DNA of 33,585 bases from Chloroflexota bacterium (GCA_030550675.1 JAUQOW010000020.1:1-33585); one strand, 5' to 3'. Numbered from the stretch's first letter, positions 9,858-30,443 are shown. A program made the numbers and translations. The notes: generated by a model not told the origin, from the sequence alone.

Positions 9858-9876
9858 TACCCGGGGAACCGACCTC

Positions 9877-11508: not shown

Positions 11509-11570
11509 AGGAGTCCTGTCCTCCTGATCAGACAGAATTACAGCCTGACGACTTTACGATAGCAACGCCA

Positions 11571-11876: not shown

Positions 11877-11921
11877 ATCGATGAAACCTCCTTCGATACC
11901 GTGCACTGTGCAGAGAACTGA

Positions 11922-11958
11922 AGCGGTTAGCACTCTCGACGGAAGAGTGCTAACCGCT
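11922..11958 (-). promoter_or_regulatory. CIRCE operator 1 (HrcA binding site), extended arms
   Basis: The canonical TTAGCACTC-N9-GAGTGCTAA is perfect at 11927-11953. Complementarity extends to 14 bp per arm (AGCGGTTAGCACTC/GAGTGCTAACCGCT). It lies just downstream of the -10 box and in the groS leader, where HrcA blocks transcription in other bacteria. Confidence 0.95.
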
Positions 11959-11962
11959 CTCT

Positions 11963-11991
11963 ATACTAACGAAATCGGTTGTTTTTGTCAA
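11963..11991 (-). promoter_or_regulatory. Sigma-70-type promoter of groS-groL
   Basis: On the minus strand, TTGACA (11986-11991) and TAGTAT (11963-11968) are separated by exactly 17 bp, between the two CIRCE elements. Transcription would start within or next to CIRCE 1. Confidence 0.85.
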
Positions 11992-11999
11992 GTCCCATT

Positions 12000-12026
12000 T
12001 TAGCACTCAGCGGACGAGAGTGCCAG
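12000..12026 (-). promoter_or_regulatory. CIRCE operator 2, slightly degenerate
   Basis: TTAGCACTC-N9-GAGTGCCAG matches the CIRCE consensus with two changes in the second arm. It lies 73 bp upstream of CIRCE 1, so the promoter is bracketed by two HrcA-type sites. It is also 133 bp from the glpX start. Confidence 0.85.
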
Positions 12027-12068
12027 TAGACATAATGAGACAACGAACGCACTGCGTCAACAGCATTC

Positions 12069-12097
12069 TAGGCAGACTGCCACAGTCATGCTACAAT
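12069..12097 (+). promoter_or_regulatory. Promoter of glpX
   Basis: TAGGCA (12069-12074) and TACAAT (12092-12097) are separated by 17 bp. TG at -15/-14 makes it an extended -10 promoter. Confidence 0.6.
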
Positions 12098-12158
12098 CGT
12101 AGCCAACCCTGTTTCGACATGCGCGGTAACGCGGAAGTTCGTGTGAAGGAGGCTGCGG

Positions 12159-13148: not shown

Positions 13149-13179
13149 CGCGGGCTGATGGCTGAACATTCAACCCGCG
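13149..13179. terminator. Hairpin between convergent genes
   Basis: CGCGGGCTGA and TCAACCCGCG pair with one mismatch around an 11-bp loop, immediately after the glpX stop and before the convergent gene's stop. There is no T-tract. Confidence 0.4.
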
Positions 13180-13180
13180 C

Positions 13181-14248
13181 TCACAATACGCCTACATTGG
13201 AGTGATCTCCCAGCACCAGGCGGTATGCCTTTGGTTTGCGCGGCGAGCGTGTCACCTCGACATACCGCCCGATCAGGCTATCCTCCAGGCGGTGCGGGAG
13301 ATCACGAATGACGCAGTGCTCCAGCACAATTGAATGCTCGATCTCAGCGCTCTCAATGACGCAATGGTGATAGATCGACGTAAAGGGTCCAATGTAGGCG
13401 TTGATAATGCGCGTATGTTCACCAATGATCGCCGGACCGCGGATGGTGCTGTTGATGATCTCCGCCCCCTTCTCGATGATCACCTTGCCAATCAGGTGCG
13501 AGTCGCGATCTACGAACCCCTCGACCGACGCTGACATTTCTTCCAGGATCAGACGATTCGCCTCCAGCATATCGTCCTTTTTCCCAGTATCGATCCACCA
13601 GCCGTGGTGGATGTAGGGAAAGACGCGCCGTCCATGCTCCACCAGCCACTGGATCGCATCGGTAATTTCCAGTTCGCCGCGCCACGAGGGACGGATCGCT
13701 TCGACCGCCTCCCAGATGCTGTTGTCGAACATATAAATGCCGACCAGCGCCAGATTCGACGGCGGCTGGCGTGGTTTTTCGATCAGGCGCACGATCTGTC
13801 CTCGCTCGTCGAGCACCGCCACGCCGTATTGCTCTGGCGTGGCAACCTGCTTGAGAACAATTTGCGCATTGTAGTCGCTCGCGCCAAACTGCTGGAGCAG
13901 CGGCGCAATCCCTCCCTGAATGCAGTTATCACCCAGAAACATGACAAACCGGTCATCCCCCAGAAAGTCGCGCGAGATCTTGACGGCATGCGCCAGACCG
14001 AGCGGCTCGTCCTGTTCGATATAGGTAATCCGCACGCCCCAGCGACTGCCATCGCCGACGGCGGCGCGCACTTCGGGTCCGGTGCTGCCGATCACGACGC
14101 CAATGTCTTCGACGCCAGCATCGCGGATCGTTTCAATGACGCGGAAGAGCACCGGCTTGTTGGCGACCGGCACCAGTTGCTTGGCGCTGGTATAGGTGAT
14201 GGGACGCAAGCGAGTGCCTTTGCCGCCGCTGAGAACCAGTCCTTTCAT
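13181..14248 (-). CDS. rmlA: Glucose-1-phosphate thymidylyltransferase, long form
   Basis: The enzyme makes dTDP-glucose from glucose-1-phosphate and dTTP for deoxysugar synthesis. The 355-residue product starts MKGLVLSGGKGTRLRPITYTSAKQLVPV, the nucleotidyltransferase signature (residues 1-28). EQDEPLGLAHAV and FLGDNCIQGG are typical of RmlA-type enzymes. A C-terminal left-handed beta-helix (about 250-345, with GKVIIEKGAEIINSTIRGPAIIG) marks the long StrD-like form. The start at 14248 replaces the ORF-track start 33 codons upstream because GAGGAAGGG sits directly before it. No RmlB/C/D genes are adjacent, so the sugar made is unknown. A TACAAT box at 14291-14296 on the minus strand is a weak promoter candidate. 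Confidence 0.9.
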   Translation of the reverse strand: MKGLVLSGGKGTRLRPITYTSAKQLVPVANKPVLFRVIETIRDAGVEDIGVVIGSTGPEVRAAVGDGSRWGVRITYIEQDEPLGLAHAVKISRDFLGDDRFVMFLGDNCIQGGIAPLLQQFGASDYNAQIVLKQVATPEQYGVAVLDERGQIVRLIEKPRQPPSNLALVGIYMFDNSIWEAVEAIRPSWRGELEITDAIQWLVEHGRRVFPYIHHGWWIDTGKKDDMLEANRLILEEMSASVEGFVDRDSHLIGKVIIEKGAEIINSTIRGPAIIGEHTRIINAYIGPFTSIYHHCVIESAEIEHSIVLEHCVIRDLPHRLEDSLIGRYVEVTRSPRKPKAYRLVLGDHSNVGVL

Positions 14249-14351
14249 AAACCCTTCCTCACGTAAGTGGATTCTATGAGCGCCTTCCACATTGTAATGG
14301 CGCCAGATGATCGATGGATAACAGTCACAGCGCCGCCCCCCACACACAGAT

Positions 14352-14378
14352 ACGCCCGTGCCTGTCCAGCACGGGCGT
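14352..14378 (-). terminator. Hairpin after the cell-wall peptidase gene
   Basis: ACGCCCGTGC and GCACGGGCGT are perfect 10-bp arms with a 7-bp loop, 25 bp after the peptidase stop on the minus strand. No U-tract follows, so termination efficiency is uncertain. Confidence 0.5.
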
Positions 14379-14403
14379 GTGCGACGACGATGGGAAAAGC
14401 GTT

Positions 14404-16002
14404 TTACCGGCGCACTCGGATAGCGCCATAATAGCGCGACGTCCAGTACGATCCCCAGATGCTGGACACCTGCACGCCGTAGCGCGGCGTCATCGCGTGA
14501 ACGATACGACCGCCGCCGATGTAAATAGCCACATGGCTGATTCCGCGCCGTCCGCCGGTGTTGCGGAAGAACACCAGATCGCCCGGCGCCAGATTCTCCA
14601 TGGAGCCGACCGACGCGCCATACGCGGTATTGAACTGCGCAGCGGCGCTGCGCGGCAGGTTAACGCCAAACTGGCGATACACATAACTGGTGAACCCGCT
14701 GCAATCGAACCCGGTCGCCGGGCTTGCGCCGCCCCAGCGATAGCGTGAACCGACAAGCTGAACGGCAAAACTGGCGACATCGCCGCTGGCGGGGATATTC
14801 GCCAGACCGGCGCTCGCGCCGGGGCGACCGCCGCTCATCGGCAACGCCGGGAAGTCGCGGCTGACCGGCACGCGCCGCAGCACGTGCGCCGTCGTGCTGA
14901 TCAAATCGCGGAACACCCACGCCTTGGTCCCGTCCGGCAATCGCACTCGCAACCAGTCCTTGTACTTGCCAATCAGATCAACCTGCACACCCGCATCGAT
15001 CCGACCAATGCGATCATAGCGCGAGTCGGGACCTTTACGCAGATTCACGCTGTTCTCAGCGATCACGCCCACCAGCGCCGGATTCGGATCAGGAATGGTC
15101 TCTGCGACCAGCAGGCGTTTGACGACCGAGGGATCAACATTCAAGAACTCGGCTTTCACCCACCCATCAAGACCGCCGGGAGCGCCAACGTGGAACCAGT
15201 CCTGATAGATTTCATACAGTTCCAGCTGCATATTCTGCTTCAGGGTCGTGATCGGCACGTAATGCGTACCGGGACCGTCCCGCAGTTGCAGACCGCTTTC
15301 GCGCACAGTTGCAATCTTCGGCGGCGGCGGGGGCGGGATGGCGCTCTCCTGCACCTCAAACAGCGTATACGACGCCGCTTCCGAGATATTGAGCACTTCC
15401 CCCGAAATCCAGTAGACCGGACCATCGACCCGCTCACGAACCTGGAACCAGTCGCCGTAGCGACCGATCACCTGCACCGGCATATCGCCGGAAATGCGCC
15501 CGACCGCATCATATTCAGTGCCGGGACCATTCCGCAGATAGGCGCGTTCCACAGCAATCGTCGCCGGCACCACGATGGGCGCGAGCGCCTCACTGCGCGA
15601 AATGAGCGAAAGCGGCACCGGCAGATCGGCAGTCTCTTCCAGCGGCGCATCGCCAATGGCGGCATCAAGATCGATGGGCGCCAGCGGCACGGTAAACTCA
15701 CTCCCTTCCTGCGGAACAACCGGCGACGGAACGGCTGGGGTCAATACTCCCGGACGAAGCTGTGACAGAAGCATGGCTACAGGGAGGAGCAGAGCAACCA
15801 GCGCATGAAGGATGACGCGAGCCGGAAGACGGGCAAGCAGATCAGAGGGGGAGCCGAACCGGGCGGACCGAACCGTTTGCCATCGAGTTGCGAGAGCGCG
15901 AGTGAGCGATGTTTGTTGTCGCCTTCGGGCAAGTGCGCGGCGCTGCAGCGACTCAAGGCTGTACGGGTCCGACGTCATACCCCGATGACTTTGCTCGATC
16001 AT
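14404..16002 (-). CDS. Membrane-anchored SH3b-NlpC/P60 cell-wall peptidase
   Basis: The 532-residue product is predicted to cleave peptidoglycan stem peptides outside the membrane. A basic cytoplasmic N-terminus is followed by one membrane segment (about 61-80). Three bacterial SH3 repeats follow, each opening with an L-R-x-GP motif (YLRNGPGTEY, LQLRDGPGTHY, VNLRKGPDSRY), and should bind cell wall. The C-terminal NlpC/P60 domain has Cys434 in TGFDCSGF, His490 in ISHVAIYIG and His502 in RIVHAM, the complete catalytic triad. The start at 16002 is preferred because AGGAG lies 7 nt before it. The longer ORF-track start has no ribosome site. A further in-frame ATG at 15978 is possible. It is the only gene between its promoter and the hairpin at 14352, so it is probably monocistronic. 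Confidence 0.9.
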   Translation of the reverse strand: MIEQSHRGMTSDPYSLESLQRRALARRRQQTSLTRALATRWQTVRSARFGSPSDLLARLPARVILHALVALLLPVAMLLSQLRPGVLTPAVPSPVVPQEGSEFTVPLAPIDLDAAIGDAPLEETADLPVPLSLISRSEALAPIVVPATIAVERAYLRNGPGTEYDAVGRISGDMPVQVIGRYGDWFQVRERVDGPVYWISGEVLNISEAASYTLFEVQESAIPPPPPPKIATVRESGLQLRDGPGTHYVPITTLKQNMQLELYEIYQDWFHVGAPGGLDGWVKAEFLNVDPSVVKRLLVAETIPDPNPALVGVIAENSVNLRKGPDSRYDRIGRIDAGVQVDLIGKYKDWLRVRLPDGTKAWVFRDLISTTAHVLRRVPVSRDFPALPMSGGRPGASAGLANIPASGDVASFAVQLVGSRYRWGGASPATGFDCSGFTSYVYRQFGVNLPRSAAAQFNTAYGASVGSMENLAPGDLVFFRNTGGRRGISHVAIYIGGGRIVHAMTPRYGVQVSSIWGSYWTSRYYGAIRVRR

Positions 16003-17694: not shown

Positions 17695-17940
17695 ATGCTG
17701 TTCCGTATTCAACTGGCGCTTCACTTCGCATGGCCAGCATTCCCTGCCAGAGACTGCGCCATAATTCACAATCTTAATCGGTCGTTAGCATTATAGAGGC
17801 GCCGCACACGTGAGTCAAGCCTGAGTCAGCGCCGGGCGCAACTGTCGATTTGCGCGTCCCAATGCCTGAAAAGGTGACGATTTCGCAAGATCGCCGCCGC
17901 TGCGACGGGGGCAAGTTGTTGAATCTCAACTCGAAGCGGA

Positions 17941-18025
17941 TGGTGGGGACGGAGGGACTCGAACCCTCACGGATTGCTCCACAAGTTCCTAAGACTTGCG
18001 CGTCTGCCAGTTCCGCCACATCCCC
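17941..18025 (-). tRNA. tRNA-Leu (anticodon UAG)
   Basis: The minus strand folds as an 85-nt class II tRNA with encoded CCA. The acceptor stem is GGGGATG/CGTCCCC with A as discriminator. The anticodon arm CAAGT-CTTAGGA-ACTTG places TAG at positions 34-36. A short variable arm precedes the T arm GAGGG-TTCGAGT-CCCTC. It reads CUA and probably other CUN leucine codons. Confidence 0.96.
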
Positions 18026-18033
18026 ACACGTCA

Positions 18034-18062
18034 ATTGTAGCAATTCTTGAGGCAGGATGCAA
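18034..18062 (-). promoter_or_regulatory. Promoter of tRNA-Leu
   Basis: On the minus strand, TTGCAT (18057-18062) and TACAAT (18034-18039) are 17 bp apart with a TGC extended -10. The start point falls a few bases before the tRNA 5' end. Confidence 0.65.
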
Positions 18063-18130
18063 ACGGCGGCAGCGCCGACGACCACGAATCATACGACATA
18101 ACCTCATACGAAGAAACCTCGTGCATGCTG

Positions 18131-18159
18131 TTGACGATCCCGATCCCTTCGTGTACAAT
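18131..18159 (+). promoter_or_regulatory. Promoter of the V4R gene
   Basis: TTGACG (18131-18136) and TACAAT (18154-18159) are separated by 17 bp, about 70 nt before the V4R start codon. It is a near-consensus sigma-70 promoter, back-to-back with the tRNA promoter. Confidence 0.75.
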
Positions 18160-18229
18160 GATGCAAGCCATCCACCGATGGCGCGTTCTAACTAATCCTT
18201 TACTCCTGAGACCCTTAAGGAGCCGGGCA

Positions 18230-18877
18230 ATGCCTGACGAGCGTGGCAGCGCAGATGAACTTGAGGTGCGATACTACCCTAACCTGATCGGCCGCCTGTA
18301 TCTTATCAGCCTCGAGGACGTCATGGGGCGAAATGGCGTCAATGCGCTGTTGAACCTGGCCGGAACCCGGCATCTGGTCAATAACTACCCGCCGAACAAC
18401 CTCAAGCGAGAATTTCCGTTCTCGGATTTGTCGGCGATCTCCAAAGCGACGGAGACGATGTACGGGCCACGCGGCGCGCGCGGCATGGAACTGCGCGCCG
18501 GACGCTATGCGTTCAACCTGGGGCTGAAAGAATTCGGTCCGCTCCTCGGTATGGCTGACCTTGCGCTGAAACTTATGCCGATGACGATGAAGATGAAGAT
18601 CGTCCTCAACGCCACGGCGCAGACGTTTGATCGCTTCAGCGATCAGCCATCCCATGTTGAGGAGCGTAAAGGTCAATTCCTCTACATTATTGAAAAATGC
18701 CCGATCTGCTGGGGGCGCAAGTCAGATCGCCCCGTCGGGCATCTGGCGCAGGGCATTCTCGAAGAAGCGCTCACCTGGGTAACTGGCGGTCACTCGTTCC
18801 GTATCGAGCAGACGGAGTGCCAGGGCATGGGGTGCGAACGCTGCATCTTCGCCATTGACAAAGACCCGATCGATTAG
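18230..18877 (+). CDS. V4R (4-vinyl reductase) domain protein
   Basis: The 215-residue protein ends in a V4R domain, the module of BchJ and of several small-molecule sensors. The evidence is the C-terminal pattern YIIEKCPICWGR ... VGHLAQGILEEALTWVTGG ... IEQTECQGMGCERCIFAIDK. Five cysteines (C157, C160, C197, C202, C205) could bind a metal or Fe-S cluster. The N-terminal 120 residues (YYPNLIGRLYLISLEDVMGRNGVNALLNLAG) resemble the helical lead-in of other V4R proteins rather than a DNA-binding domain. The start at 18230 is chosen for its AAGGAG ribosome site at 8 nt and because the promoter lies between it and the ORF-track start. In phototrophs V4R is linked to bacteriochlorophyll intermediates or hydrocarbon sensing, but nothing here proves a ligand. 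It lies upstream of the signalling run on the same strand. Confidence 0.8.
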   Translation: MPDERGSADELEVRYYPNLIGRLYLISLEDVMGRNGVNALLNLAGTRHLVNNYPPNNLKREFPFSDLSAISKATETMYGPRGARGMELRAGRYAFNLGLKEFGPLLGMADLALKLMPMTMKMKIVLNATAQTFDRFSDQPSHVEERKGQFLYIIEKCPICWGRKSDRPVGHLAQGILEEALTWVTGGHSFRIEQTECQGMGCERCIFAIDKDPID

Positions 18878-18897
18878 TCGTCGCACTGTAACCGTTG

Positions 18898-18951
18898 TTT
18901 TGGAGGTGCAAACGTCTTGCACAACGCCGACAGGACGGGCACGCTCCAAAA
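18898..18951. repeat. Nested inverted repeat after the V4R gene
   Basis: TTTTGGAG (18898-18905) and CTCCAAAA (18944-18951) are perfect arms. They enclose GTGCAA-ACGTC-TTGCAC (18906-18922), another perfect hairpin. It starts 20 bp after the V4R stop. It may be a terminator, but there is no T-tract on the plus side. The rest of the 18878-19200 gap holds a T-rich stretch (19012-19026) and the next promoter. Confidence 0.55.
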
Positions 18952-19100
18952 GATGACGCACAAACGCACGTTCGATAGTCCGGCTCTGTCTGTCGGGCTA
19001 GGCGCTACGTGTGTTTTTGTGTTTTCGGAAGCTGAAAAGAACGCCGTCTCCGATACGCTTTGTTGACCCCGGTGCGTAATTCGACTGTAATCTCATGCCC

Positions 19101-19130
19101 TTGAAGGGTCGCTTCCCTATTCTGTATAGT
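19101..19130 (+). promoter_or_regulatory. Promoter of the beta-helix/signalling gene run
   Basis: TTGAAG (19101-19106) and TATAGT (19125-19130) are 18 bp apart, about 65 nt before the start codon. The -10 is embedded in a palindrome, described separately. Confidence 0.6.
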
Positions 19131-19136
19131 ACAGAA
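19120..19136. promoter_or_regulatory. Candidate operator overlapping the -10 box
   Basis: TTCTGTA-TAG-TACAGAA has perfect 7-bp arms and covers the whole -10 hexamer. A dimeric repressor here would block initiation. The regulator is not known. Confidence 0.45.
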
Positions 19137-19200
19137 CAGAGCCTGGAAGGAGGTTCTGTCTCTCCTTCAATTCCGGCTATCGTTGCGGGGAGTCGCATCT

Positions 19201-20601
19201 ATGAAACGCATCATCATCCGTGAGCGCACGCTCATCCCCCCGTTCGGCGAGCCGGCGCGCGATCTGCGCGTGCTGAATAAACCGCTCTGGCTGTTGCAAC
19301 GTGATCTGCTCGCTCCCTATTGTCGCGGCGCATTGGAAGTCGACTCGCTTGAGGAGGTGCCGCCGGTCAATGAAGAACTGCTCGTCTACCGCGATAATCT
19401 GTTCTTCAATGAGTATCTGATCGACGCCTTCATCCGCGAAGCGCGCAGGACCGGGCGCGCCTGCCGCATCGCCTTTGCACGCGACGATGCGGCTATCGTC
19501 ACGCATGCCCTGCATCTCCAGGAAGGCATCCGCCTCGATGAACGCCATGGCGTATATGTCGCCGACCTGTTCTACTATCCGCGCGGTCCCGATGCGGACC
19601 CGGAGCCGCTGGTGATCGATACGCTGCCGCGCGAAATGGGGTACTACCATATCCCCAGTTACATGGCGCGCCATGGCGACCTGGTGTTTCAGGTGCCCAT
19701 GCGCGCGTTCCTTTCCATCGAAAATTGGGTGCATGTCTTTCTGGCGAATTCGCCATTCGGCGTCTTCTCGTGGGGACGGATCCACGAGCAACTGGTCGAG
19801 GAAAGCTGGAAAGAGAAAATTGCAGTATCATTGACGACGCTGGCAGAACGCCTCAACCCGTTCGCTCCGCCCTGGCGCAACCATTTCCTGGCATGCTCGC
19901 GCCTGGTGAAGGTCGGCAAAAATTGTTCGATCGATCCGACGGCGATTATTCACGGACCAACGGTCATCGGCAATAATGTCTATATCGGCGCTGGCGTTGT
20001 GATCACCAACAGTTTGATCGGCGACAACGTCAACATCATGCAGGGGTCGCAGATTATGTTGAGCGTGGTGAGCGACCGCTGCTACCTGCCATTCAACGCC
20101 GGGCTGTTTATGACGACGCTGATGGAAAACTCGATGGTCGCCCAGCTGAGTTGTCTGCAGTTATGCGTGGTTGGTCGGAACACGTTCATCGGCGCCGGGA
20201 ATATTTTTACGGACTTCCATCTGCTGAATCGCCCAATTCGCACCTTCCACCGCTGGAAGGGCGCCGAAAAACCGGAATTGGTCGAGGTGGGATTGCCGGT
20301 GCTGGGATCCGCCGTCGGTCATAATGTGAAGATCGGCAGCGGTTTTGTCGTGTACCCGGCACGTATGATAGAATCAAATACCGTGCTGCTCTACTCGGCG
20401 CCGGATACCGTCATCGGGCACAACGTGGTTCATCTGGCAGGCGACGATGAGAGCGATGCCGATGAGCACGGCGACCTGCGCCGCACGATCTACCGCTGGC
20501 CTCAGCGGTACGACCCCGCTACGCACAACGGCGACGATGAGCCGCACGGTCCGATACTGGTATCGATGTCGCTTGCGCAATCCGTTCCTGCGCGACGCTA
20601 G
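19201..20601 (+). CDS. Left-handed beta-helix (hexapeptide repeat) protein with GlmU-like architecture
   Basis: The 466-residue protein has an N-terminal region of about 230 residues, without the GGxGTRL nucleotidyltransferase signature, and a C-terminal left-handed beta-helix (about 233-410). The helix repeats include KVGKNCSIDPTAIIHGPTVIGNNVYIGAGVVITNSLIGDNV and VVGRNTFIGAGNIFTDF. The layout recalls sugar-nucleotide pyrophosphorylase/acyltransferase fusions, but the missing signature means no pyrophosphorylase activity can be claimed. The N-terminus (LIPPFGEPARDLRVLNKPLWLLQRD) is not one I can assign. The tail (about 425-466) is rich in Asp, Glu and His. ATG 19201 is chosen over the TTG at 19183 used in the ORF track because GCGGGGAG lies 8 nt upstream. 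The next gene starts 11 bp after its stop, implying an operon with the response regulator. Confidence 0.65.
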   Translation: MKRIIIRERTLIPPFGEPARDLRVLNKPLWLLQRDLLAPYCRGALEVDSLEEVPPVNEELLVYRDNLFFNEYLIDAFIREARRTGRACRIAFARDDAAIVTHALHLQEGIRLDERHGVYVADLFYYPRGPDADPEPLVIDTLPREMGYYHIPSYMARHGDLVFQVPMRAFLSIENWVHVFLANSPFGVFSWGRIHEQLVEESWKEKIAVSLTTLAERLNPFAPPWRNHFLACSRLVKVGKNCSIDPTAIIHGPTVIGNNVYIGAGVVITNSLIGDNVNIMQGSQIMLSVVSDRCYLPFNAGLFMTTLMENSMVAQLSCLQLCVVGRNTFIGAGNIFTDFHLLNRPIRTFHRWKGAEKPELVEVGLPVLGSAVGHNVKIGSGFVVYPARMIESNTVLLYSAPDTVIGHNVVHLAGDDESDADEHGDLRRTIYRWPQRYDPATHNGDDEPHGPILVSMSLAQSVPARR

Positions 20602-20612
20602 GAGGCTGTTTC

Positions 20613-21557
20613 GTGAGCAAAGAGAAAATCCTGGTCGTCGAAGACGCCCCTGATATTGCCAGTCTGCTCAAGATTTATTTTACGTCGCAGGGGTATGAAG
20701 TCATGACCGCGATGCGCGGTCAAACCGCCCTCGAAATCTGCCGGAAGACGCCGCCCAACCTGGCATTGCTCGATGTCAATTTGCCCGACATGGAAGGGTA
20801 TGAAATCGGCAAGGCGCTGCGCCAGAGCGCACGAACCCGCCATATTCCGATCATCTTCCTGACGGCGCGCGGCGAAAAGCAGGATCGGCTCAAAGGTCTC
20901 GGCGAGGTTCAGGCGGAGTATTACATTGTCAAGCCCTTCGACATTGAAGAGGTGCATACGATCGTCAAGGGCGCCCTTGATCGGGCGCGCCAGAAGAACC
21001 TGACCCATCCGGTCACGAACCTGCCGACCGCCGAGTTGATCAATGAGCAGTACCGCACCCTGCTCGCCAGCAGCGGTTGGGCGCTGGCGCTGGTGCATAT
21101 CAACGGCTTTGATGCGTTTACCCAGTCCTATGGCGCAATGGTCGGCGAAGAGGTGCTGAAATTCACCGCCCTGCTGATCAGCGAGGCGATCAACGATCTG
21201 GGGCGCCCCGAAGATTTCGCCGGGCAGATGATTGTTGGTCCGTCGTTCGTGATTACGTCGACGCCTCAAGCCATTCAGGCGATCTGTCAGCGATTGTGCG
21301 ACCGGTTCGATGCTGATATTGGGCTGCACTACGACTATAAGGATCGTCGCAACGGGTATATCACGGTCCAGAGCGAAGACGGCAGCGTGCGCCAATTGCC
21401 GTTGATGTCGCTCTCGATCGGCGTTCTGACCAGTGATGACGGTCCGTTCTACGATATTCGCGAGCTCAGCGAAAGCGTCGAGGAGGTTCGCCAGCGCGCC
21501 GTTGTTGAAGCGCGTGAGCAGGGGCGGAAAAGCCACATGGTCATCGGGCGGGCATGA
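20613..21557 (+). CDS. Response regulator: receiver domain plus degenerate GGDEF-like domain
   Basis: The 314-residue protein starts at a GTG with GGAGG upstream. Its receiver domain (1 to about 120) is complete: acidic pair E10/D11, phospho-acceptor D54 in ALLDVNLPD, T84 and K107 in YIVKPFD. After a short linker, residues about 125-310 follow the outline of a GGDEF domain, from HPVTNLPTAELINEQ (compare DPLTGLPNR) to the strand near MSLSIGVLTSD. The place of the GGDEF motif reads GQMIVGPSFVI, so the catalytic Gly-Gly-Asp/Glu-Glu is gone and diguanylate synthesis is not expected. The domain probably works by protein contact or ligand binding. It sits between the beta-helix gene (11 bp) and the histidine kinase gene (54 bp), so the kinase is the likely phosphodonor. 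Confidence 0.88.
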   Translation: MSKEKILVVEDAPDIASLLKIYFTSQGYEVMTAMRGQTALEICRKTPPNLALLDVNLPDMEGYEIGKALRQSARTRHIPIIFLTARGEKQDRLKGLGEVQAEYYIVKPFDIEEVHTIVKGALDRARQKNLTHPVTNLPTAELINEQYRTLLASSGWALALVHINGFDAFTQSYGAMVGEEVLKFTALLISEAINDLGRPEDFAGQMIVGPSFVITSTPQAIQAICQRLCDRFDADIGLHYDYKDRRNGYITVQSEDGSVRQLPLMSLSIGVLTSDDGPFYDIRELSESVEEVRQRAVVEAREQGRKSHMVIGRA

Positions 21558-21611
21558 AAGGTCGGCGGTCTGGCTGTACGCCGTCGCTGGCATGACGACA
21601 GGTCCCTGTCA

Positions 21612-24600
21612 ATGGACGCCACAACTGTTACGTCACCACACGTTCGAGCATGGGAACTTCTCACAGGACTGGCGGAGTACGGCCGATCCATCAGCGGCGA
21701 TGCGCAGTCCCTGGTGCAACGTGTCGCCGAACTGGCGCAGGATCATCTGCCCTGTCCGTGGGGCGTGATCATGGTGCAGGTCGGAGGGGCGCCGGTCAGC
21801 GCCGGTTGGGGCGTCAGCCCAGAGTGGCGTCAGCGCCTGATTGAACGCGCCATTCCTGTTCCAGCCCAAACGATCGAAGCGCCCCTCTACTATCGTGATG
21901 AACCTGCTGGCATGTTGTGGCTTGGCATGCCAGCCGCTCATCATGAACAACTCGCCCCTGGCTTTCTGACAACCCTGCGGCATCAGATCGAACTGCTCGT
22001 CGCGCTGCTGCACCACGACTCTGGACCGACCGTTGAAACGCCGGACGAGTCGCGCCAGCGCCAGTACGCCAGTGAGATGGATACGCTGCGCGCGTTGAGC
22101 GCGCATCTGGGGTCTGGTCTTGCGCTGGAAGAACTCTCGCCTGCGGTGGTCCGGTGGGCGCAGCAACTCATTCCGTGCGCCGCCGCCGCCCTCAGCCTGA
22201 TCAACCCGGATACAGGCCTGCTCGAACCGGCGGCGACCATCGGCGCTCCGTTCGCATCGCCGGCGTCCGTCCCGGAGGACAACCGTCAGGCGCTGAATGA
22301 ATGGGTCGCCCGTCATCGGCGGACGATTCGCCTCTCCGATATGCGCTACGCTCCGGTGCCTCCGGCACTCGACGCCTTCGCCGATGGGCGCCCCATTCGT
22401 GCATATATGGCGATCCCGTTGCAGGTGGGGAATCAGGTGGTCGGCGTTCTCGAGTTGCTGGACGTTCAGCCCGACCGTTTCGGCGAACACGAAGAACGCC
22501 TGATCGCCATTCTGGCGGCGCAGGCGGCGCAGGCTGTCGCCAGCGCGCAACGCTACGCTGAGGACGACGAACATCTCCAGAGTCGCCTGCTGCAACTGCG
22601 CTCGTTGCAACGCATCAGCCGTGAACTGACCTCCACGCTCTATCTGCACAATATTCTCGACTTTGCGCTGAAAGAGGCGTTGCGAGCCACTCACGCCACC
22701 CAGGGGTACGTTGCACTGCGCGGCTATGCGGTGGAGCGCGAAGCGTTTGAGATGGAGCAATCCGATGCCTTTGGCGTAGCGGTTTCACCGCAAACGTATG
22801 TCGCGCTGCGATCCGTCGGCGAGAATGGACCGGTGCGCCTGATCGTCGCTGAAGGATATGCGCCTGGCGATCACGACCGCCTGATCAATGCGACGCTGGA
22901 TGGCGCCAACGTCATCGCTGCCAGCGTGATGGCGCGCGGCGAGGCGCGGATTGTCGAGAAACTGACCGATGACGATCGCCTGGCGGCGATCGGACCGGCG
23001 CCAGCATCGACGCTGGCAGCGCCGATCTATTATGAAGAACAGGTCATCGGCGTCATCAATCTGCACAGTACGCGGGCGCGCGCTTTTAATCGCGATGCGC
23101 TCGATTTCATTCGCGCCGTCGCTGATCAGATCGCGCTGGCGATTGGCAACGAAGAACGATACCATGAACAGCGCCGCCAGCGCGACCTGCTGGCGCAACG
23201 CGCAACGACGCTCAATGAGGTGCTGCGCATTGGGCAGGAAATGCGCGCCGACCGGTCGCTCGATGACGTGCTTGAACAGATCGCCTTCAGCGTCGCCGAG
23301 ACTGCGCGTTTCCGGTCGGTTGCGTTTTACCTGATCGATAACGATAACGATAACGATGAGAGCGCAACCGTCTCGCTCGTCGCCGCCGCCGGGCTGCCGC
23401 TCGCCGAAATTGAGCGCCTGCGTCGCCGTCATCTGCCGGTATCCGTGATCGAACAACTGCTCGATCCGCACTATCGTATCGGTCGGAGCTTTTTTGTGCC
23501 CGGTCAGCGCATACGGGAACTGGTCGACGGCGCGGATCTGCGCTTGCTCTCGCCCCTGGAGACAGAAGGAACGCGCACGCCGGATGAGTGGCAGATCGAT
23601 GATGTCCTGATCGTCCCGCTCTACCGAAGCAAGTCGCGGTTGGTGGGGATTATGGTGGTCGATGAGCCGTATGACCGTCAACTCCCCACCCCTCGCTCTG
23701 TCGAGACGCTCGAGATTTTCGCCGATCAGGCGGCGATCGCCATCGAAAACGCCATGCTGCTGCGCGAAGCGCGGTCCCAGGCGAAGCAGATGGCGTCTCT
23801 CTACCGCGCCAGCGCTGCAATGGTCTCTTCGCTCGATCTCGACAGTTTGCTCGACCGGATTTATGCCGAGATCGAGGCGCACGTCGGAACGCCGTCGTTC
23901 TGCTTTGTGGCATCGTACAATCCGTTCCGTGATGAACTCTGCTTCGAGATGTTCAAGCGAGAAGGCGCCACGGCAGCGCATCTGCACAAGCGCATCATTC
24001 CGCGCAGCGGGTTGAGCGGTTGGGTGATCGAGCACCGGAAAATGCTCTACATCGAGGATTTTTCGGAAGAACAGGATCGCCTGCCGGTCACGCCGGTCAA
24101 CCTGGGAGAGCCGATTCGATCGTGGGTGGGCATTCCGCTCATGCGCCAGAACCAGCCCATCGGCGTGCTCTCGGTGCAGAGCTTTGAGCCGCGTGCGTTC
24201 AGCGCACGCGACGTGCAGTGGCTGTCGACTGTCGCCAATCAACTTGCGGTTGCGCTGTCGAATGCGCAACTCTTCGCAGAGCGCGGGCAGCGCATCAACG
24301 AACTGAACCTGATCAATCACATTGGTCACATCACCAGTTCGACGTTTGATATTGAGCAGATGTTCGCTGGCGTCTACGAGGCGCTGGCTGGCTTCCTTCC
24401 CATCGATGGATTCGCTGCCTGCGTCTATGATGCCAACAGCGATCAAATAGGTCAGACCTTCGTTGCCAGCGCCGGAAAGCGCCTGTATCGGCGCATGAAC
24501 CGCGCGCCTTCCCCCAATGGTCTGATCCGGCGCGTGGTCGATGCGCAGCAACCGATCCGACTGGACGATCGGCGGGATGCGGCGGTGGATGCCTGCCTGG

Positions 24601-27600
24601 ACGCCGCGCTTTCGGGAGAAACGGATTGTGTGTTCGCCTCGTGCGTCGGCGTGCCCCTCGTCGTCGGCGAGCGCGAGGTTGTCGGCGTGCTGGTGCTGCA
24701 AAGCGGCATGCCGCGCGCGTATGGCGATCGCGAGCTTGCGTTCCTGAATACCGTCGCAGTGCAGGTGGCGCTCGGCGTGCAGAATATTCGGCTGTTCACC
24801 GAAGCGCGCGACAGCGCAATGGCGTTACAGCGCAAGGTCAGCGAACTATCGGCGCTGCTGCGGGCTGCACAGGTCCTCAGTTCTTCGCTCAAACCGGACG
24901 ACGTGTTGCAATCGCTCATGGCGATTGTTGCCGAACAGTTGCAGGTCGATACCGTCGCGCTCTGGAAGATCGATGCCGACGGATTCCTGACGCCAGCCGC
25001 CATGCAGGGCATCCCGATCGATATGGCGCGGGTGCTGCGCGTGCCAATCGGCAGAGGATTGACGGGGCGCGTCGCTGCCAGCGGTCAGCCGCTGGTGGTG
25101 GCAAATGTTGAGGAAGATGGCACGTCGCTCTATCCGCAGTTCAACCGTGAGCATCAATACACCTCATTTATGGGCGTTCCGGTTGTCTACCGTGAACAGA
25201 CCATCGGCGTCCTCAGCGTGATGACCGTGCCGCAGCGCGCGTTCAGCGCCGACGAGGTCACGTTGCTGGCAGGCATCGCCGATCAGGCGGCGATTGCGCT
25301 CGAAAATGCGCGATTGTTTGCCGAACGCGAGCGCCGGATCGCTGAGTTGACGGCGTTAAACCATATCAGTCAGGCGATCAATGTTTCGCTCAGCACCGAG
25401 GAGATTCTGGAGGCGCTCCACCGCGGCATGAGCGAAGTGCTCGACACGTCCCAATCGTTTATTGCCCTGTACGACGCTAAAACGCGCCGCCTGACATTCC
25501 CGCTGGTCTATGAAGATGGCCGTCGTGCGCCTGAGAGAGAAACGGAGGTTATTGTTCTCGACGATCTGGCGGGCGGCTTGACGCCTACGGTGATTCTCGA
25601 GCGTCGTCCGCTCCTGTTGCGCACCCAGCAGGAGGTTGACGCCGTGGCGCTGCACCCCGCCGATCTCAACAAGCCGCCGATCTGTTCCTGGCTGGGTGCG
25701 CCGATCATTCAGGGCGATGAGGTCCTTGGCGTCCTCAATGTCCAGAGTTATGAGCCAGGACGGTTCGACGAGGATGCACAGCGCTTCTTAATGACGGTCG
25801 CCAATCAGGCGGCTATCGCGTTGAGCAATGTTCGCCTGTTCCAGAGCGAACAGGAGCGCCGCCGGGTGGCGGATACGCTGCGCGAAGTCGCGCAGATGAT
25901 GACCGGCGTGCTGGCGCTCGACGATATTTTTGGCATGATCCTCGACCAGTTGGCGCGGATCGTTCCCTATGACACGGCTTCGCTCATGCTGCGCGAAGGG
26001 GACATGTTGCGCATCGTGGCGGCGCGCGGCTTTGACGAGTCGATCCGCGAGCGCGTTGAACATCTCCAACTGCGCGTCGATGATGATCCGTCGCTGGCGC
26101 GGGTGCTGCACACTCGCCGTCCCTACGTTCTGATTGATGCGCGCGAGGCGCCGCCATCCAGCGTCGATGATGGCACGGAACACATCCGCGGCTGGATCGG
26201 CGCCCCGCTGCTGCTCGGCGATGACGTCATCGGCATTCTCAACGTCGACAGCACAACCGTCGGCGCCTACGACGAAGAGGATGCACAACTCGCATTCGCG
26301 CTGGCAAGCCAGGCGGCGCAGGCGATCCGCAACGCGCGCCTGTTTGATGAGGTGCGGCGCTTTAACGCAGAACTTGAGCAACTGGTCAGTGAACGCACAG
26401 CGGCGCTCCAGGAAGCCAACGCCCGCCTCGCCGCCGAACGCGACCGGCTACAGGCGGTGCACAGGATTACATTGGAACTGACTGCCAGCCTTGACTTGCA
26501 AACGACCCTGAACCGCACCCTGGCGCTCGCGTCTGAAGCGGTCGGCGCACGGCGCGGCTCGATTATGCTCAAGGACCTCCAGAGCGGACAGCTCATCTGC
26601 CGGGCTGTGCTCAACATTGATGGAACCGTTGAGTCGAAGCATATACCGATCACTTTTGAGAAGGGATTGGGACTTTCGGGATGGGTCATGCACCATCAGG
26701 AAGCGGTCTGTATCGCCGATGTGCGCAACGATGCGCGCTGGCTGCGCGAAGAAGGACGCGCTGAGGAAGTGCGGTCGGTCATCGCTGCGCCGTTAATGAC
26801 CCAGGACGGACCGCAGGGAGTGTTGATTCTGACCAGCCCGCAAGTCAACTTCTTTGGTCAGGATCAACTGCAACTTCTGGCGACTATTGCCAATGAAGTG
26901 GCGATCGTCATCCATAACGCCATGCTCTACACGATTATCAATGAAATCGCCACAGAGCGCGGCGAGTTGTGGTCACAGCAGCGCGAAGAGAATAGCAAGA
27001 ACCAGGCGATCCTCCAGAGCCTAGGCGAAGGGGTCATTGTCGTTGACGAAGATCAGAACATCGTGCTCTACAATGCAGCCGCCGAACAGATCCTGGGCAT
27101 TCCAGCCCGGTTTGTCGCCAATAAGCCGCTGGCGCGGATCGCCGAGTACTGTGAGGACGACCAGGGCGCCGAACGCGCTCGACGCATCTACGAAGGGCTG
27201 CGTCAGGGGTTGCAGGCGCTTGCTGAAGCGCAAAAGAACCATAACCGGGTGCTGGAGCTGCCAGAACCAACGCAATCGATTGTCTTGAATTTCGCACCCT
27301 GGGTAGGACCGCGCAATGCGATCTACGGCAGCGTGGTCGTGCTCCACGATATTACCCGCGAAGTCGAAGCCGACCGCGCAAAACGCGAGTTTATTTCCAA
27401 CGTCTCGCACGAGTTGCGCACCCCGCTGACATCAATCAAGGGATATGTCGATCTCCTCATGCTCGGCGCCAGCGGACCGCTCAATGAAAGTCAGACGTCG
27501 TTCCTGAACGTGGTCAAGAGCAACACGCACCGCCTCATGAACCTGATCAACGATATTCTGGAGATCGGACGGATTGACGACAACAAGGTCAAGCTGAACT

Positions 27601-28109
27601 TTGAGAGCGTCTTCATCGGCGATATCTTTGAGGAAGTCAGGAAGATGCTGCGCGCCGAGATTGAACGCAAGCGCCTGTCGTTCAGCATTGAGGTTGCTGA
27701 ACAGACGCCGCCAGTGATGGCTGATGAGACGCGCCTGACCCAGGTGGTGCTGAACCTGGCGTCGAATGCAGTGAAGTACACCTACCCTGAAGGCATCGTC
27801 AAGCTGCGCGCCGGACTGAACCCCGCCGGATTGCTCCAGGTTGATGTTATCGACAATGGCGTCGGCATTTCACCCGAACAGCAGCAACATCTCTTCCGTC
27901 GCTTCTACCGCGCCGACAACCCGCTCCGCGATGAAGCCGGCGGCACCGGTCTCGGGTTGTCGATCGCCAAGTCGTATGTCGAAATGCACGGCGGTCAGAT
28001 GTGGGTAGAAAGTGAACCGGGCAAAGGCAGCACCTTCAGTTTTATTATCCCGCTGACCCAGCCAGCGTCAGAGTCCGAAACGGAAGCGACGAAGCAGAGT
28101 CGATCATGA
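21612..28109 (+). CDS. Giant soluble multi-GAF PAS sensor histidine kinase
   Basis: The 2165-residue kinase has no membrane segment or signal peptide. By alignment of the recurring blocks (..IGVLxvqs..aF...d...l..vAnQaAiAleNArLF), I count ten GAF units at about 20-140 (weak), 156-320, 327-525, 530-720, 724-890, 894-1068, 1073-1238, 1242-1425, 1428-1580 and 1614-1775. A coiled coil (about 1580-1614) separates the last two. A PAS domain follows (about 1797-1920, QSLGEGVIVVDEDQNIVLYNAAAEQILG). Next come HisKA with His1933 in FISNVSHELRTPLTSIKGY and a complete HATPase_c with N-box NLASNAVKY (from N2048), DNGVGIS and GGTGLGLSIAK. No bilin Cys-containing phytochrome signature was found. The ATG at 21612 has only a weak ribosome site (ACAGG). 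The stop overlaps the next start by ATGA. Confidence 0.95.
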   Translation: MDATTVTSPHVRAWELLTGLAEYGRSISGDAQSLVQRVAELAQDHLPCPWGVIMVQVGGAPVSAGWGVSPEWRQRLIERAIPVPAQTIEAPLYYRDEPAGMLWLGMPAAHHEQLAPGFLTTLRHQIELLVALLHHDSGPTVETPDESRQRQYASEMDTLRALSAHLGSGLALEELSPAVVRWAQQLIPCAAAALSLINPDTGLLEPAATIGAPFASPASVPEDNRQALNEWVARHRRTIRLSDMRYAPVPPALDAFADGRPIRAYMAIPLQVGNQVVGVLELLDVQPDRFGEHEERLIAILAAQAAQAVASAQRYAEDDEHLQSRLLQLRSLQRISRELTSTLYLHNILDFALKEALRATHATQGYVALRGYAVEREAFEMEQSDAFGVAVSPQTYVALRSVGENGPVRLIVAEGYAPGDHDRLINATLDGANVIAASVMARGEARIVEKLTDDDRLAAIGPAPASTLAAPIYYEEQVIGVINLHSTRARAFNRDALDFIRAVADQIALAIGNEERYHEQRRQRDLLAQRATTLNEVLRIGQEMRADRSLDDVLEQIAFSVAETARFRSVAFYLIDNDNDNDESATVSLVAAAGLPLAEIERLRRRHLPVSVIEQLLDPHYRIGRSFFVPGQRIRELVDGADLRLLSPLETEGTRTPDEWQIDDVLIVPLYRSKSRLVGIMVVDEPYDRQLPTPRSVETLEIFADQAAIAIENAMLLREARSQAKQMASLYRASAAMVSSLDLDSLLDRIYAEIEAHVGTPSFCFVASYNPFRDELCFEMFKREGATAAHLHKRIIPRSGLSGWVIEHRKMLYIEDFSEEQDRLPVTPVNLGEPIRSWVGIPLMRQNQPIGVLSVQSFEPRAFSARDVQWLSTVANQLAVALSNAQLFAERGQRINELNLINHIGHITSSTFDIEQMFAGVYEALAGFLPIDGFAACVYDANSDQIGQTFVASAGKRLYRRMNRAPSPNGLIRRVVDAQQPIRLDDRRDAAVDACLDAALSGETDCVFASCVGVPLVVGEREVVGVLVLQSGMPRAYGDRELAFLNTVAVQVALGVQNIRLFTEARDSAMALQRKVSELSALLRAAQVLSSSLKPDDVLQSLMAIVAEQLQVDTVALWKIDADGFLTPAAMQGIPIDMARVLRVPIGRGLTGRVAASGQPLVVANVEEDGTSLYPQFNREHQYTSFMGVPVVYREQTIGVLSVMTVPQRAFSADEVTLLAGIADQAAIALENARLFAERERRIAELTALNHISQAINVSLSTEEILEALHRGMSEVLDTSQSFIALYDAKTRRLTFPLVYEDGRRAPERETEVIVLDDLAGGLTPTVILERRPLLLRTQQEVDAVALHPADLNKPPICSWLGAPIIQGDEVLGVLNVQSYEPGRFDEDAQRFLMTVANQAAIALSNVRLFQSEQERRRVADTLREVAQMMTGVLALDDIFGMILDQLARIVPYDTASLMLREGDMLRIVAARGFDESIRERVEHLQLRVDDDPSLARVLHTRRPYVLIDAREAPPSSVDDGTEHIRGWIGAPLLLGDDVIGILNVDSTTVGAYDEEDAQLAFALASQAAQAIRNARLFDEVRRFNAELEQLVSERTAALQEANARLAAERDRLQAVHRITLELTASLDLQTTLNRTLALASEAVGARRGSIMLKDLQSGQLICRAVLNIDGTVESKHIPITFEKGLGLSGWVMHHQEAVCIADVRNDARWLREEGRAEEVRSVIAAPLMTQDGPQGVLILTSPQVNFFGQDQLQLLATIANEVAIVIHNAMLYTIINEIATERGELWSQQREENSKNQAILQSLGEGVIVVDEDQNIVLYNAAAEQILGIPARFVANKPLARIAEYCEDDQGAERARRIYEGLRQGLQALAEAQKNHNRVLELPEPTQSIVLNFAPWVGPRNAIYGSVVVLHDITREVEADRAKREFISNVSHELRTPLTSIKGYVDLLMLGASGPLNESQTSFLNVVKSNTHRLMNLINDILEIGRIDDNKVKLNFESVFIGDIFEEVRKMLRAEIERKRLSFSIEVAEQTPPVMADETRLTQVVLNLASNAVKYTYPEGIVKLRAGLNPAGLLQVDVIDNGVGISPEQQQHLFRRFYRADNPLRDEAGGTGLGLSIAKSYVEMHGGQMWVESEPGKGSTFSFIIPLTQPASESETEATKQSRS

Positions 28110-28945
28110 GCGCGATCCATATCGACAACCGATTAGTGCACTATGAGGTCGTCGGTCGCCGCGGCGCGCCGGTGATCTTCCTGCACAGCTGGCTTGGATC
28201 GTGGCGCTACTGGTTGCCGACGATGGAGCACGCCGCCGAACGGTATCGCACGTTCGCCATCGATTTCTGGGGGTTTGGCGAGTCGGACCGACGCGACGGC
28301 GCATTTTCCATTGCGGAGTACGTCGATCTGGTCATGCGCTTCATGAACCAGCTCGGCATTGCGAGAGCCAGCGTCGTCGGGCACGGATTGGGCGGAATGG
28401 TTGCGCTCCGCGCCGCCAGCCAGCATCCGGACCGCTTCACCCGCCTCATGATCGTCAGCACCCCAATCCAGGGATCACAGATTCAAAACCATATTCGTCC
28501 CAGCGCCCTGTCGCGCCTTTTCAATCGCGTCGCGCCCGGCAATGTCTGGACGCGCCTGATGCGGCAGCTCAATGTCGATTATCCGCAGATTTTGAACGAA
28601 ATTATCGAGGATACCGATAGCCTTTCTGAAACAGTGGTGCAACGTGTGATCGCGTCAGTCGCCGAGACCGATCTGCGCGGAGACCTGGAACGCCTGGAAA
28701 CGCCGCTGCTGGCGGTCTTCGGCGAAAAGGACGCGATTGTGTCGCCTGACCAGGCGCGTTTTCTGCACGATGACCACGCTTCAATGCAACAGGTCATCAA
28801 ACTGCCGCGATCAAACCATTTCCCCTTTCTCGACCAACCCAACGTTTTCAACCGCCTGCTGATGGATTTTCAAGAGAGCAAGGGCACGCAGGTAGAGATC
28901 AAGACCGAGTGGCGACGACGGGTGAGCCAACTGGAGTATATCTGA
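28106..28945 (+). CDS. Alpha/beta-hydrolase-fold protein lacking the nucleophile Ser (putative pseudo-hydrolase)
   Basis: The 279-residue protein has the alpha/beta-hydrolase fold: VIFLHSWLGSW (oxyanion region, 23-33), FAIDFWGFGESDR (50-62), the elbow VVGHGLGGMVAL (90-101), FGEKDAIVSP (Asp209) and RSNHFPFLDQP (His238). In active relatives the elbow is GHSxGG. Here the codon is GGA, giving Gly94 in the nucleophile position, while Asp and His remain. Classical esterase or hydrolase catalysis is therefore not expected. The start codon overlaps the kinase stop (ATGA), so translation is coupled and both should be made together. By analogy with RsbQ, an alpha/beta hydrolase that works with a PAS-domain phosphatase, it may bind a small ligand and act on the kinase. 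That is inference. A sequencing error is possible, though the frame is otherwise intact. Confidence 0.85.
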   Translation: MSAIHIDNRLVHYEVVGRRGAPVIFLHSWLGSWRYWLPTMEHAAERYRTFAIDFWGFGESDRRDGAFSIAEYVDLVMRFMNQLGIARASVVGHGLGGMVALRAASQHPDRFTRLMIVSTPIQGSQIQNHIRPSALSRLFNRVAPGNVWTRLMRQLNVDYPQILNEIIEDTDSLSETVVQRVIASVAETDLRGDLERLETPLLAVFGEKDAIVSPDQARFLHDDHASMQQVIKLPRSNHFPFLDQPNVFNRLLMDFQESKGTQVEIKTEWRRRVSQLEYI

Positions 28946-29069
28946 GGCGCGAAGCGCAGGGTGCGGGGTGTGAGGTGCAAGGGCGGCGGTTCCGCAGTCG
29001 CATGAGGGCGTCTTGCGTCCTCTGTGTCTGGATGCTTTAACGAGCAGTGCGACAATACAGGTGAAAGGG

Positions 29070-30110
29070 ATGCACGACAATACAATGGAAGCGCTGGTCT
29101 GGCTGGGACCGCGCAAGATGGAAGTGCGGCGCGAACCCGTGCCTCAGCCGAGACCGGGTGAGGTGCTGGTCGAAGTTGCAGCGGTTGGAATCTGCGGGTC
29201 GGAACTGAGCGGATATCTGGGAGAGAATAGCCTGCGCAAGCCGCCGCTGATCATGGGGCACGAAGCCGCGGGACGGATCGCCTTCGACAGCGATGCACTG
29301 CTGAGCGACGGCTCGCCTGCACGGGCTGGCACGCGAGTGACGTTCAACCCCCTCGTCACATGCGGCGCATGCGATCTCTGTCGAGCGGGGAAGAACAACC
29401 TGTGCCGCAACCGACAGTTGATCAGCGCGCATCGTCCAGGCGCATTCGCCGGGTATGTCGCAGTGCCCGCGCACCTCTGCGTTCCCCTGCCGGATCACGT
29501 GTCGCTGACCCTGGGTTCGCTCACCGAGCCGCTGGCGTGCAGCGTGCGCGCCGTGGCGCACGCTGGCGCACCGCAAAGCCTCGTGATTCTGGGCGCCGGA
29601 CCGATTGGACTGCTCTGTTTAATCGCGGCGCGCGCCGCTGGCGTGGATCAGATACTGATCAGCGATGTTTCCGAGCGCCGCCTGGCGGTTGCGCGCGCCT
29701 GGGGCGCAACCGCGACTGTGAATGCACGCGATGATGTGCTCGCGGCAGTGCAGGCGTTGGCGCCAGGCGGCGCGGATGCTGCGATCGATGCAGTGGGGCT
29801 GACCATCACCCGCGAGCAGGCGGTGCGCGCCATTGCGCCGGGCGGGCGGGCGGTTTACATCGGATTGCACGAGGAACAGTCGATGTTCGCCGCCAATTAC
29901 GTCGTTCGCCAGGAGATCACGGTCGTGGGCAGTTTCACCTACAGCGATGCCGATTTCAGGCGCGCGCTCGATCTTCTGGCGGCGGGATGGGTGTCGCTCG
30001 ACGGCGACTGGCTCGAAGAACGTCCGCTGGCGGCGGGGCCGGCGGCATTCGCAGAGTTGATCGCTGGCGCGACGCGCGCAACCAAGATTGTGCTGCGCGT
30101 CGCAGCATAG
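29070..30110 (+). CDS. Zinc-dependent medium-chain alcohol/polyol dehydrogenase
   Basis: The 346-residue MDR dehydrogenase has catalytic-zinc residues Cys42 (VGICGSE), His64-Glu65 (MGHEAAG) and Glu153 (LTEPLACSV). The structural zinc site is C98-G-A-C101-D-L-C104-x7-C112. The Rossmann motif is GAGPIG (175-180), with Asp199 at the end of the second strand, which favours NAD over NADP. This arrangement is shared by sorbitol, threonine and L-idonate dehydrogenases; the substrate cannot be named. The start is uncertain. ATG 29070 is used because AGGTG lies about 7 nt upstream. GTG 29061 and ATG 29085 are alternatives, and the ORF-track start at 29013 has no ribosome site. It follows the pseudo-hydrolase gene after 124 bp, where no convincing promoter was seen. 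Confidence 0.9.
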   Translation: MHDNTMEALVWLGPRKMEVRREPVPQPRPGEVLVEVAAVGICGSELSGYLGENSLRKPPLIMGHEAAGRIAFDSDALLSDGSPARAGTRVTFNPLVTCGACDLCRAGKNNLCRNRQLISAHRPGAFAGYVAVPAHLCVPLPDHVSLTLGSLTEPLACSVRAVAHAGAPQSLVILGAGPIGLLCLIAARAAGVDQILISDVSERRLAVARAWGATATVNARDDVLAAVQALAPGGADAAIDAVGLTITREQAVRAIAPGGRAVYIGLHEEQSMFAANYVVRQEITVVGSFTYSDADFRRALDLLAAGWVSLDGDWLEERPLAAGPAAFAELIAGATRATKIVLRVAA

Positions 30111-30321
30111 CAGGGCGGTGTAGGGCATGCTGCATACATCAATCAAGAAAAGGGAAACCGGTGCGACATAACGCACAGCGTGTTGATCGACGAACAGCGA
30201 CTATGCTCGCGCAGGCGACTTCGTCGTTATGCAAAAAAAGAGGTTCGGGCGATGAAAGAAGCGCTTTCATTAGAACAACGTTAGATATCTGTTAGAAAAA
30301 TGCAAGATCTGGCATATCTGG

Positions 30322-30346
30322 AGAGATGCAAGCCTTGCAATCTCTT
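30322..30346. promoter_or_regulatory. Near-perfect palindrome over the -35 box (possible operator)
   Basis: AGAGATGCAAG and CTTGCAATCTCT are complementary except for one missing T, and they cover the TTGCAA -35 hexamer. Confidence 0.4.
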
Positions 30347-30363
30347 AGGAGGCGTGATATACT
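30335..30363 (+). promoter_or_regulatory. Strong promoter of the small membrane-peptide gene
   Basis: TTGCAA (30335-30340) and TATACT (30358-30363) are 17 bp apart with TGA before the -10 (extended -10). Transcription would begin near 30370, about 75 nt before the small ORF. Confidence 0.75.
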
Positions 30364-30443
30364 GAAAACAGAAAAAAGTTGATGGAATATCGATATTCAC
30401 ATCATGAGACGCTGCTTTCAAACCTGACGAAAGGAGGTTGGCC

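Follow-up and report, generated by a model that had tools for sequence, protein, structure and literature searches.

The plant receptors D14 and KAI2 use the alpha/beta hydrolase (ABH) fold for perception and retain its Ser-His-Asp triad. Closer to the locus described here are the bacterial RsbQ-PAS modules, in which an ABH protein makes contact with a PAS domain that is itself fused to a phosphatase, a kinase or a cyclase, as in RsbQ-RsbP of Bacillus subtilis and in the RsbQ-PAS-histidine kinase systems of Gram-negatives (PMC3183031). Two models were put forward for RsbQ, one in which catalysis makes the signal and one in which the receptor need only be occupied, without catalysis; the triad is required (PMC3183031). 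A third group, comprising NDRG2/3, the neuroligins and the ChEL domain of thyroglobulin, has substituted the nucleophile and uses the retained fold in regulation or in contacts between proteins (PMC7022630, PMC5943944).

We analysed a stretch of DNA of 33,585 nucleotides from a Chloroflexota bacterium (GCA_030550675.1 JAUQOW010000020.1:1-33585), here called the window, with positions counted from its first letter. It contains a module read in one direction, in the order V4R, hexapeptide protein, response regulator, kinase and ABH, the last of these without the elbow Ser. Judged from sequence comparison, this Ser-less ABH and the kinase would make up a bipartite hydrolase-fold/kinase sensor whose hydrolase has lost its nucleophile in all of the family sampled. 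Searches of the open-licence literature for an ABH with a histidine kinase in Chloroflexi, or for V4R with a GTPase, found nothing. The genes of the module, and the sites in the ABH gene to which we refer, are as follows.

18230..18877, plus strand: V4R-domain protein of about 215 aa, likely starting at ATG 18230 in a frame open from 18047 (Pfam V4R, E 1e-10)
19201..20601, plus strand: hexapeptide (left-handed beta-helix, LbH) protein, 466 aa from its ATG (Pfam Hexapep, E 1.2e-13)
20613..21557, plus strand: response regulator with a degenerate GGDEF-like domain, 314 aa (Pfam Response_reg, E 1.8e-26)
21612..28109, plus strand: giant GAF-array histidine kinase, 2165 aa (Pfam)
28106..28945, plus strand: Ser-less ABH-fold protein, 279 aa, last gene of the module (ORF, translation, Pfam)
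28187..28189, plus strand: codon 28, Ser, in the oxyanion-loop motif LHSW (alignments)
28385..28387, plus strand: codon 94, GGA (Gly), at the nucleophile-elbow position (sequence)
28730..28732, plus strand: codon 209, Asp, at the acid position, GEKDAIV (alignments)
28817..28819, plus strand: codon 238, His, the triad histidine, SNHFPFLD (alignments)
28895..28942, plus strand: C-terminal tail EIKTEWRRRVSQLEYI, residues 264-279 (alignments, AlphaFold)

The product of the last gene, which begins with ATG, has the canonical ABH fold as judged both by Pfam (Abhydrolase_1, E 8.9e-27) and by an AlphaFold (AF2) model (pLDDT 81, pTM 0.84). Its elbow reads V-V-G92-H93-G94-L95-G96-G97 (GHGLGG), with Gly94 standing where serine hydrolase enzymes have a Ser, Cys or Asp nucleophile; the acid and the histidine of the triad are found in the translation as Asp209 and His238. 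The first-pass annotation had proposed a Ser-to-Gly change at the elbow and retention of the remainder of the triad, and was right on each count. Its description of the locus as an ABH with a kinase also stands, and is extended here by features that it lacked, namely the V4R, hexapeptide and response regulator module, the C-terminal tail, a Ser-bearing paralogue, and relatives with Ala, Asp, Asn or Thr at the elbow.

The partner gene encodes about nine GAF domains, one PAS domain, HisKA and HATPase_c (Pfam), and its H, N, G1 and G2 boxes (SHELRTP, NLASNAVKYT, DNGVGI and GTGLGL) are intact, with no obvious defect, as in a histidine kinase. The PAS domain occupies residues 1798-1914, beside HisKA, and is followed by HDIT. 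The kinase stop and the ABH start share ATGA in the window, an overlap from which stoichiometric synthesis of the two proteins had been proposed at the outset; the overlap is not universal, being found at 42 of 92 assessable junctions in the family, with a short gap or another overlap at 10 and a gap the size of a response regulator at 40.

The arrangement resembles an RsbQ-PAS module in that an ABH gene lies beside the gene for a PAS-containing signalling protein, which in RsbQ-PAS modules too may be a histidine kinase, and in that the fold is the same. RsbQ, however, keeps and needs its catalytic triad, whereas the Ser-less ABH is without the elbow Ser; the RsbQ gene lies immediately upstream of that for the PAS protein, whereas the Ser-less ABH gene is downstream in all assessable loci; and the PAS domain of RsbP is N-terminal and without DIT, whereas that of the kinase here is internal with HDIT. 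The Chloroflexota pair differs further in the GAF array of its kinase and in the C-terminal tail by which the ABH family is marked. On this comparison the Ser-less ABH family lacks the defining features of RsbQ, yet its construction is the one to be expected under the occupancy model. D14 (Z about 27.5-27.6 against the AF2 model) and KAI2-like proteins (Z 27.3) are alike in using the hydrolase fold for perception, and differ from the Ser-less ABH in keeping the triad, in having other partners and in sharing only about 20% identity with it. NDRG, neuroligin and thyroglobulin differ in being eukaryotic and in having no histidine kinase encoded alongside them; in NDRG3, moreover, the triad is wholly lost and the pocket blocked.

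A search at the family level placed this gene in 11 genomes, the window's own among them; each copy has GHGLGG and is preceded by the GAF kinase. At the order level an orthologue was present in most Chloroflexales genomes, separated by a score gap from a Ser paralogue, and the named relatives with the Ser-less form include Chloroflexus, Oscillochloris, Chloroploca, Viridilinea, Kouleothrix and Herpetosiphon. Phylum-wide searches and inspection of gene neighbourhoods added Ser-less relatives from Anaerolineae and Thermoflexia, where the gene comes last after a kinase and a response regulator and the elbows read GHGLGA, GHDLGA, GHALGG, GHNLGA or GHTLGA. In a single scan of genome contigs that also reached outside Chloroflexota, the best 80 loci were all from Chloroflexota except one contig labelled Candidatus Gracilibacteria (L092, JAAUTF010000072.1); that contig carries a typical Chloroflexaceae kinase-ABH pair and is probably mis-binned.

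Among 146 distinct homologues the elbow residue is other than Ser in 94 (Gly in 83, Asp in 6, Ala in 2, Thr in 2 and Asn in 1) and is Ser, as GHSxGG, in the remaining 52; none of the 94 has Ser or Cys. A histidine kinase is encoded upstream, directly or one response regulator away, in 92 of 92 Ser-less members with enough upstream DNA (the other two begin at contig ends), and the C-terminal tail ..K.EW[KR]RR[V].. is present in 92 of 92 with an intact C-terminus (the other two are cut by contig ends); among the Ser homologues the tail and the adjacent kinase are each found in 0 of 52. Class was assigned after the loci had been collected, so the residue did not select them, and they were picked by score, so that divergent or tail-less Ser-less homologues could be under-sampled. 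These are not independent counts, as on the tree Ser need have been lost no more than once or twice. Neither of the findings on orthologues that the first-pass annotation named as grounds for refutation turned up: the kinase neighbour is constant at every assessable locus if an intervening response regulator is allowed for, and no Ser orthologue occurs at the same locus among the 94 proteins. As to its question whether Gly is conserved, 83 members have Gly and the other 11 have Ala, Asp, Asn or Thr.

The loss of Ser is real. Where residue 94 is Gly, each of the four possible codons occurs (GGC 39, GGG 19, GGA 13 and GGT 12), ten different non-Ser codons are found at this position among the 94 distinct proteins, and the NG86 dN/dS of the Ser-less ABH in five Roseiflexus-type genomes is 0.04-0.08, similar to that of the Ser form. 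The use of all four Gly codons together with strong purifying selection indicates that the Ser-less state is maintained. We found nothing in favour of a sequencing error, the alternative raised in the first-pass annotation, or of a decaying pseudogene, and in view of the proteins, codons and dN/dS values just given we regard the chance of either as practically nil. In a tree of 72 rows, built with the trait columns left out, one branch separates all Ser-less proteins from the others, so that a single change would suffice, and the Asp and Asn elbow variants are nested among Gly forms within the Anaerolineae branch; because the separating branch has weak support (SH-aLRT 34), it is possible that Ser was lost either once or twice.

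The genomes recovered at the family level encode a second hydrolase, with the elbow GHSMGG, that is about 42-48% identical to the Ser-less ABH in Roseiflexaceae and has neither a kinase neighbour nor the tail; the Anaerolineae Ser form is 37% identical to the window protein. The two forms share the pocket signature LH[GS]W.GSW and HFP[FM]L[DE], and differ in the Ser nucleophile, the tail and the adjacent kinase. They generally co-occur in the same genomes. In most Anaerolineae examined both lie within one cluster, where the Ser form adjoins genes for a GTPase and a DUF4388 protein, whereas in Chloroflexales the Ser form is elsewhere on the chromosome and the Ser-less form is tied to the kinase gene. 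A duplication of the Ser-bearing paralogue found in the same Anaerolineae cluster is the probable origin of the Ser-less ABH, and that paralogue is the natural candidate for the enzyme that would produce or remove a ligand of the kind proposed below for the Ser-less form.

An alignment of both forms gives 34 common positions, including LH[GS]W.GSW..W, H93 and H238, with a common pocket signature of H27-W29-G31-S32-W33-W36, H93 and H238-F239. Outside the tail, few columns are strongly specific to the Ser-less form, among them the elbow, R34, Y35, L95 and R250; within the tail such columns are K266, W269, R271, R272 and V273. Tail residues 267-279 have pLDDT under 50 and are predicted to be disordered, and the tail motif was found nowhere else in the window; a tail that is conserved and yet predicted to be disordered is what a docking peptide might be expected to look like. 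His238 is invariant across the Ser-less family wherever sequences align there, and position 209, mostly Asp elsewhere, has changed to Asn or Ser in several members from Anaerolineae, a pattern that would suit binding better than a charge relay. That Ser28 of the oxyanion loop has taken over as nucleophile is rejected as a general explanation, because column 28 is mostly Gly in Anaerolineae Ser-less members, as it is in Ser-form paralogues; some enol-lactonases, moreover, have Ser at the same place. The best structural match to the AF2 model is 2xua (Z 30.1, rmsd 2.3 over 244 residues), with esterases and enol-lactonases ranking first, and RsbQ (1wom; Z 27.3, 17% identity), like D14, lies within a crowd of esterases. 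Because the best matches are ordinary catalytic ABHs, the fold carries no weight for a receptor function.

The surrounding module is shared widely. Synteny of V4R-LbH-RR-HK-(RR)-ABH spans Roseiflexus to Anaerolineae, and the module recurs in Chloroflexales, Anaerolineae and Thermoflexia; the window's V4R protein, hexapeptide protein and response regulator are 42%, 50% and 43% identical, respectively, to the corresponding Anaerolineae cluster proteins. Across 400 genomes of the phylum, the 70 that have the hexapeptide protein are exactly the 70 that have the ABH family. The Ser-less type of ABH is present in 68 of these 70, and 61 of the 68 have the hexapeptide gene upstream of it on the same strand, at a distance of 6-12 kb. 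A Ras-like GTPase, which in Chloroflexales is located elsewhere, is found in 69 of the 70 and in four other genomes. The GGDEF match of the window response regulator falls below its cut-off (E 1.6e-4) and the signature is replaced by ..QMIVGPSF..; the protein is probably not a cyclase in Roseiflexus. Response regulators of Thermoflexia (L126, L128) have GGDDF at the place of QMIVGPSF in the window.

In Anaerolineae the cluster covers about 13-15 kb (L170-L185; for example L176, from genome G086, 798-15676) and encodes DUF4388, a Ras-like GTPase, a Ser-form ABH, V4R, the hexapeptide protein, an acyl-ACP-reductase-like protein (TIGR04058/PigE N-terminal-like), an RR-GGDEF protein, a GAF kinase, a response regulator and the Ser-less ABH. 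We found no published description of this cluster or of the co-inherited gene set in the open-licence literature. The acyl-ACP-reductase-like gene was considered as a constant part of the module and rejected, as in the window's family it occurs only within large open frames elsewhere; in the window's own genome, away from the window, such domains lie in frames of about 700-830 aa (G000:C389:10228-11304 and G000:C27:14263-15348). In two genera of that family (G002, G003 and G015-G025) both hydrolases and the Ras-like GTPase are missing together, which suggests that the whole system was lost, or is absent, at once. Promoter-like matches lie at 19101-19130, upstream of the hexapeptide gene, and at 18131-18159, upstream of the V4R gene; the region 17700-30400 contains 14 such matches, compared with 3.9 expected in shuffles.

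We think it reasonably likely that the Ser-less ABH is a non-hydrolytic regulatory subunit of the giant, cytosolic GAF kinase encoded upstream, one that probably binds a ligand and docks through its tail. The ABH would be made from the kinase mRNA, co-translation being suggested by the overlap or close linkage that we observe. The flexible tail (K.EW[KR]RRV) and nearby Ser-less-specific residues such as Arg250 would then dock on the kinase or on its response regulator, since the tail is conserved, predicted to be disordered and strictly co-inherited with the kinase. The retained pocket (His238, LH[SG]W.GSWRYW and usually Asp209) would bind a small molecule without cleaving it, and occupancy of the pocket would shift the kinase/phosphatase balance via PAS-HisKA, with the phosphoryl group passing to the response regulator or regulators of the module. 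Linkage suggests that the protein binds the kinase, and the loss of the nucleophile suggests that it lacks hydrolase activity. The proposal of the first-pass annotation that the ABH is a pure binding sensor is plausible and consistent with the family data.

The same features might instead describe a pure scaffold or adaptor, the fold being kept only as a protein-protein module for the kinase and response regulator, with no small ligand. Few conserved features set the Ser-less ABH apart as clearly as its tail and R250, and ABHs that are not enzymes and work by protein contacts are known in NDRG3, neuroligin and thyroglobulin (PMC7022630, PMC5943944); the pocket here could be closed, as in NDRG3. 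What makes this reading unlikely in our judgement is that the active-site floor (oxyanion loop and His238) is conserved as in the Ser paralogues, with His238 invariant, whereas in NDRG3 all three triad residues have been replaced and the pocket is obstructed.

That same conservation of His238, with Asp209 mostly kept, could point to an enzyme that does without Ser. Alpha/beta hydrolase-fold proteins with non-hydrolase chemistries exist, and Asp at the elbow is the nucleophile in epoxide hydrolases and dehalogenases. A His-Asp general base might accordingly support hydration, lyase or oxygenase-like chemistry, or Asp might act as nucleophile in the GHDLGA branch, which comprises six Anaerolineae members (L176 14888-15676, L179, L198-L200 and L203). 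We consider this quite improbable, however, as the residue at position 94 has drifted and may be Gly, Ala, Asp, Asn or Thr, which suggests no specific chemistry, and as the acid position in the six Asp-elbow members is Asn in four and Ser in one. The presence of both hydrolase forms in the same genomes, and in most Anaerolineae in one cluster, would also fit a dead subunit that regulates the Ser-bearing paralogue, or the V4R or LbH proteins, instead of pairing with the kinase; the separation of the two genes in Chloroflexales, where the Ser-less one stays with the kinase gene and often overlaps it by four bases, makes this very unlikely.

If the Ser-less ABH is indeed a ligand-binding subunit of the kinase, a wider and more tentative possibility, on balance doubtful, is that the two hydrolases serve intracellular chemical signalling, with the Ser form making or clearing a small, perhaps acyl-derived molecule and the Ser-less form acting as the receptor that reports to the GAF kinase via its tail. 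Were this so, bacteria would have their own counterpart to hydrolase-type hormone perception, here without hydrolysis and tied to V4R, the hexapeptide protein and the Ras-like GTPase. More immediately, the tail K.EW[KR]RRV together with a non-Ser elbow provides a motif by which the 'hydrolase' annotation of these proteins can be corrected, and the locus gives a signalling context to a co-inherited Chloroflexota gene set. For RsbQ-type sensors it is unsettled whether the hydrolase acts by catalysis or by occupancy (PMC3183031); a family that has lost Ser, has five replacement residues in its place and has kept its tie to a kinase represents a natural experiment for the occupancy model.
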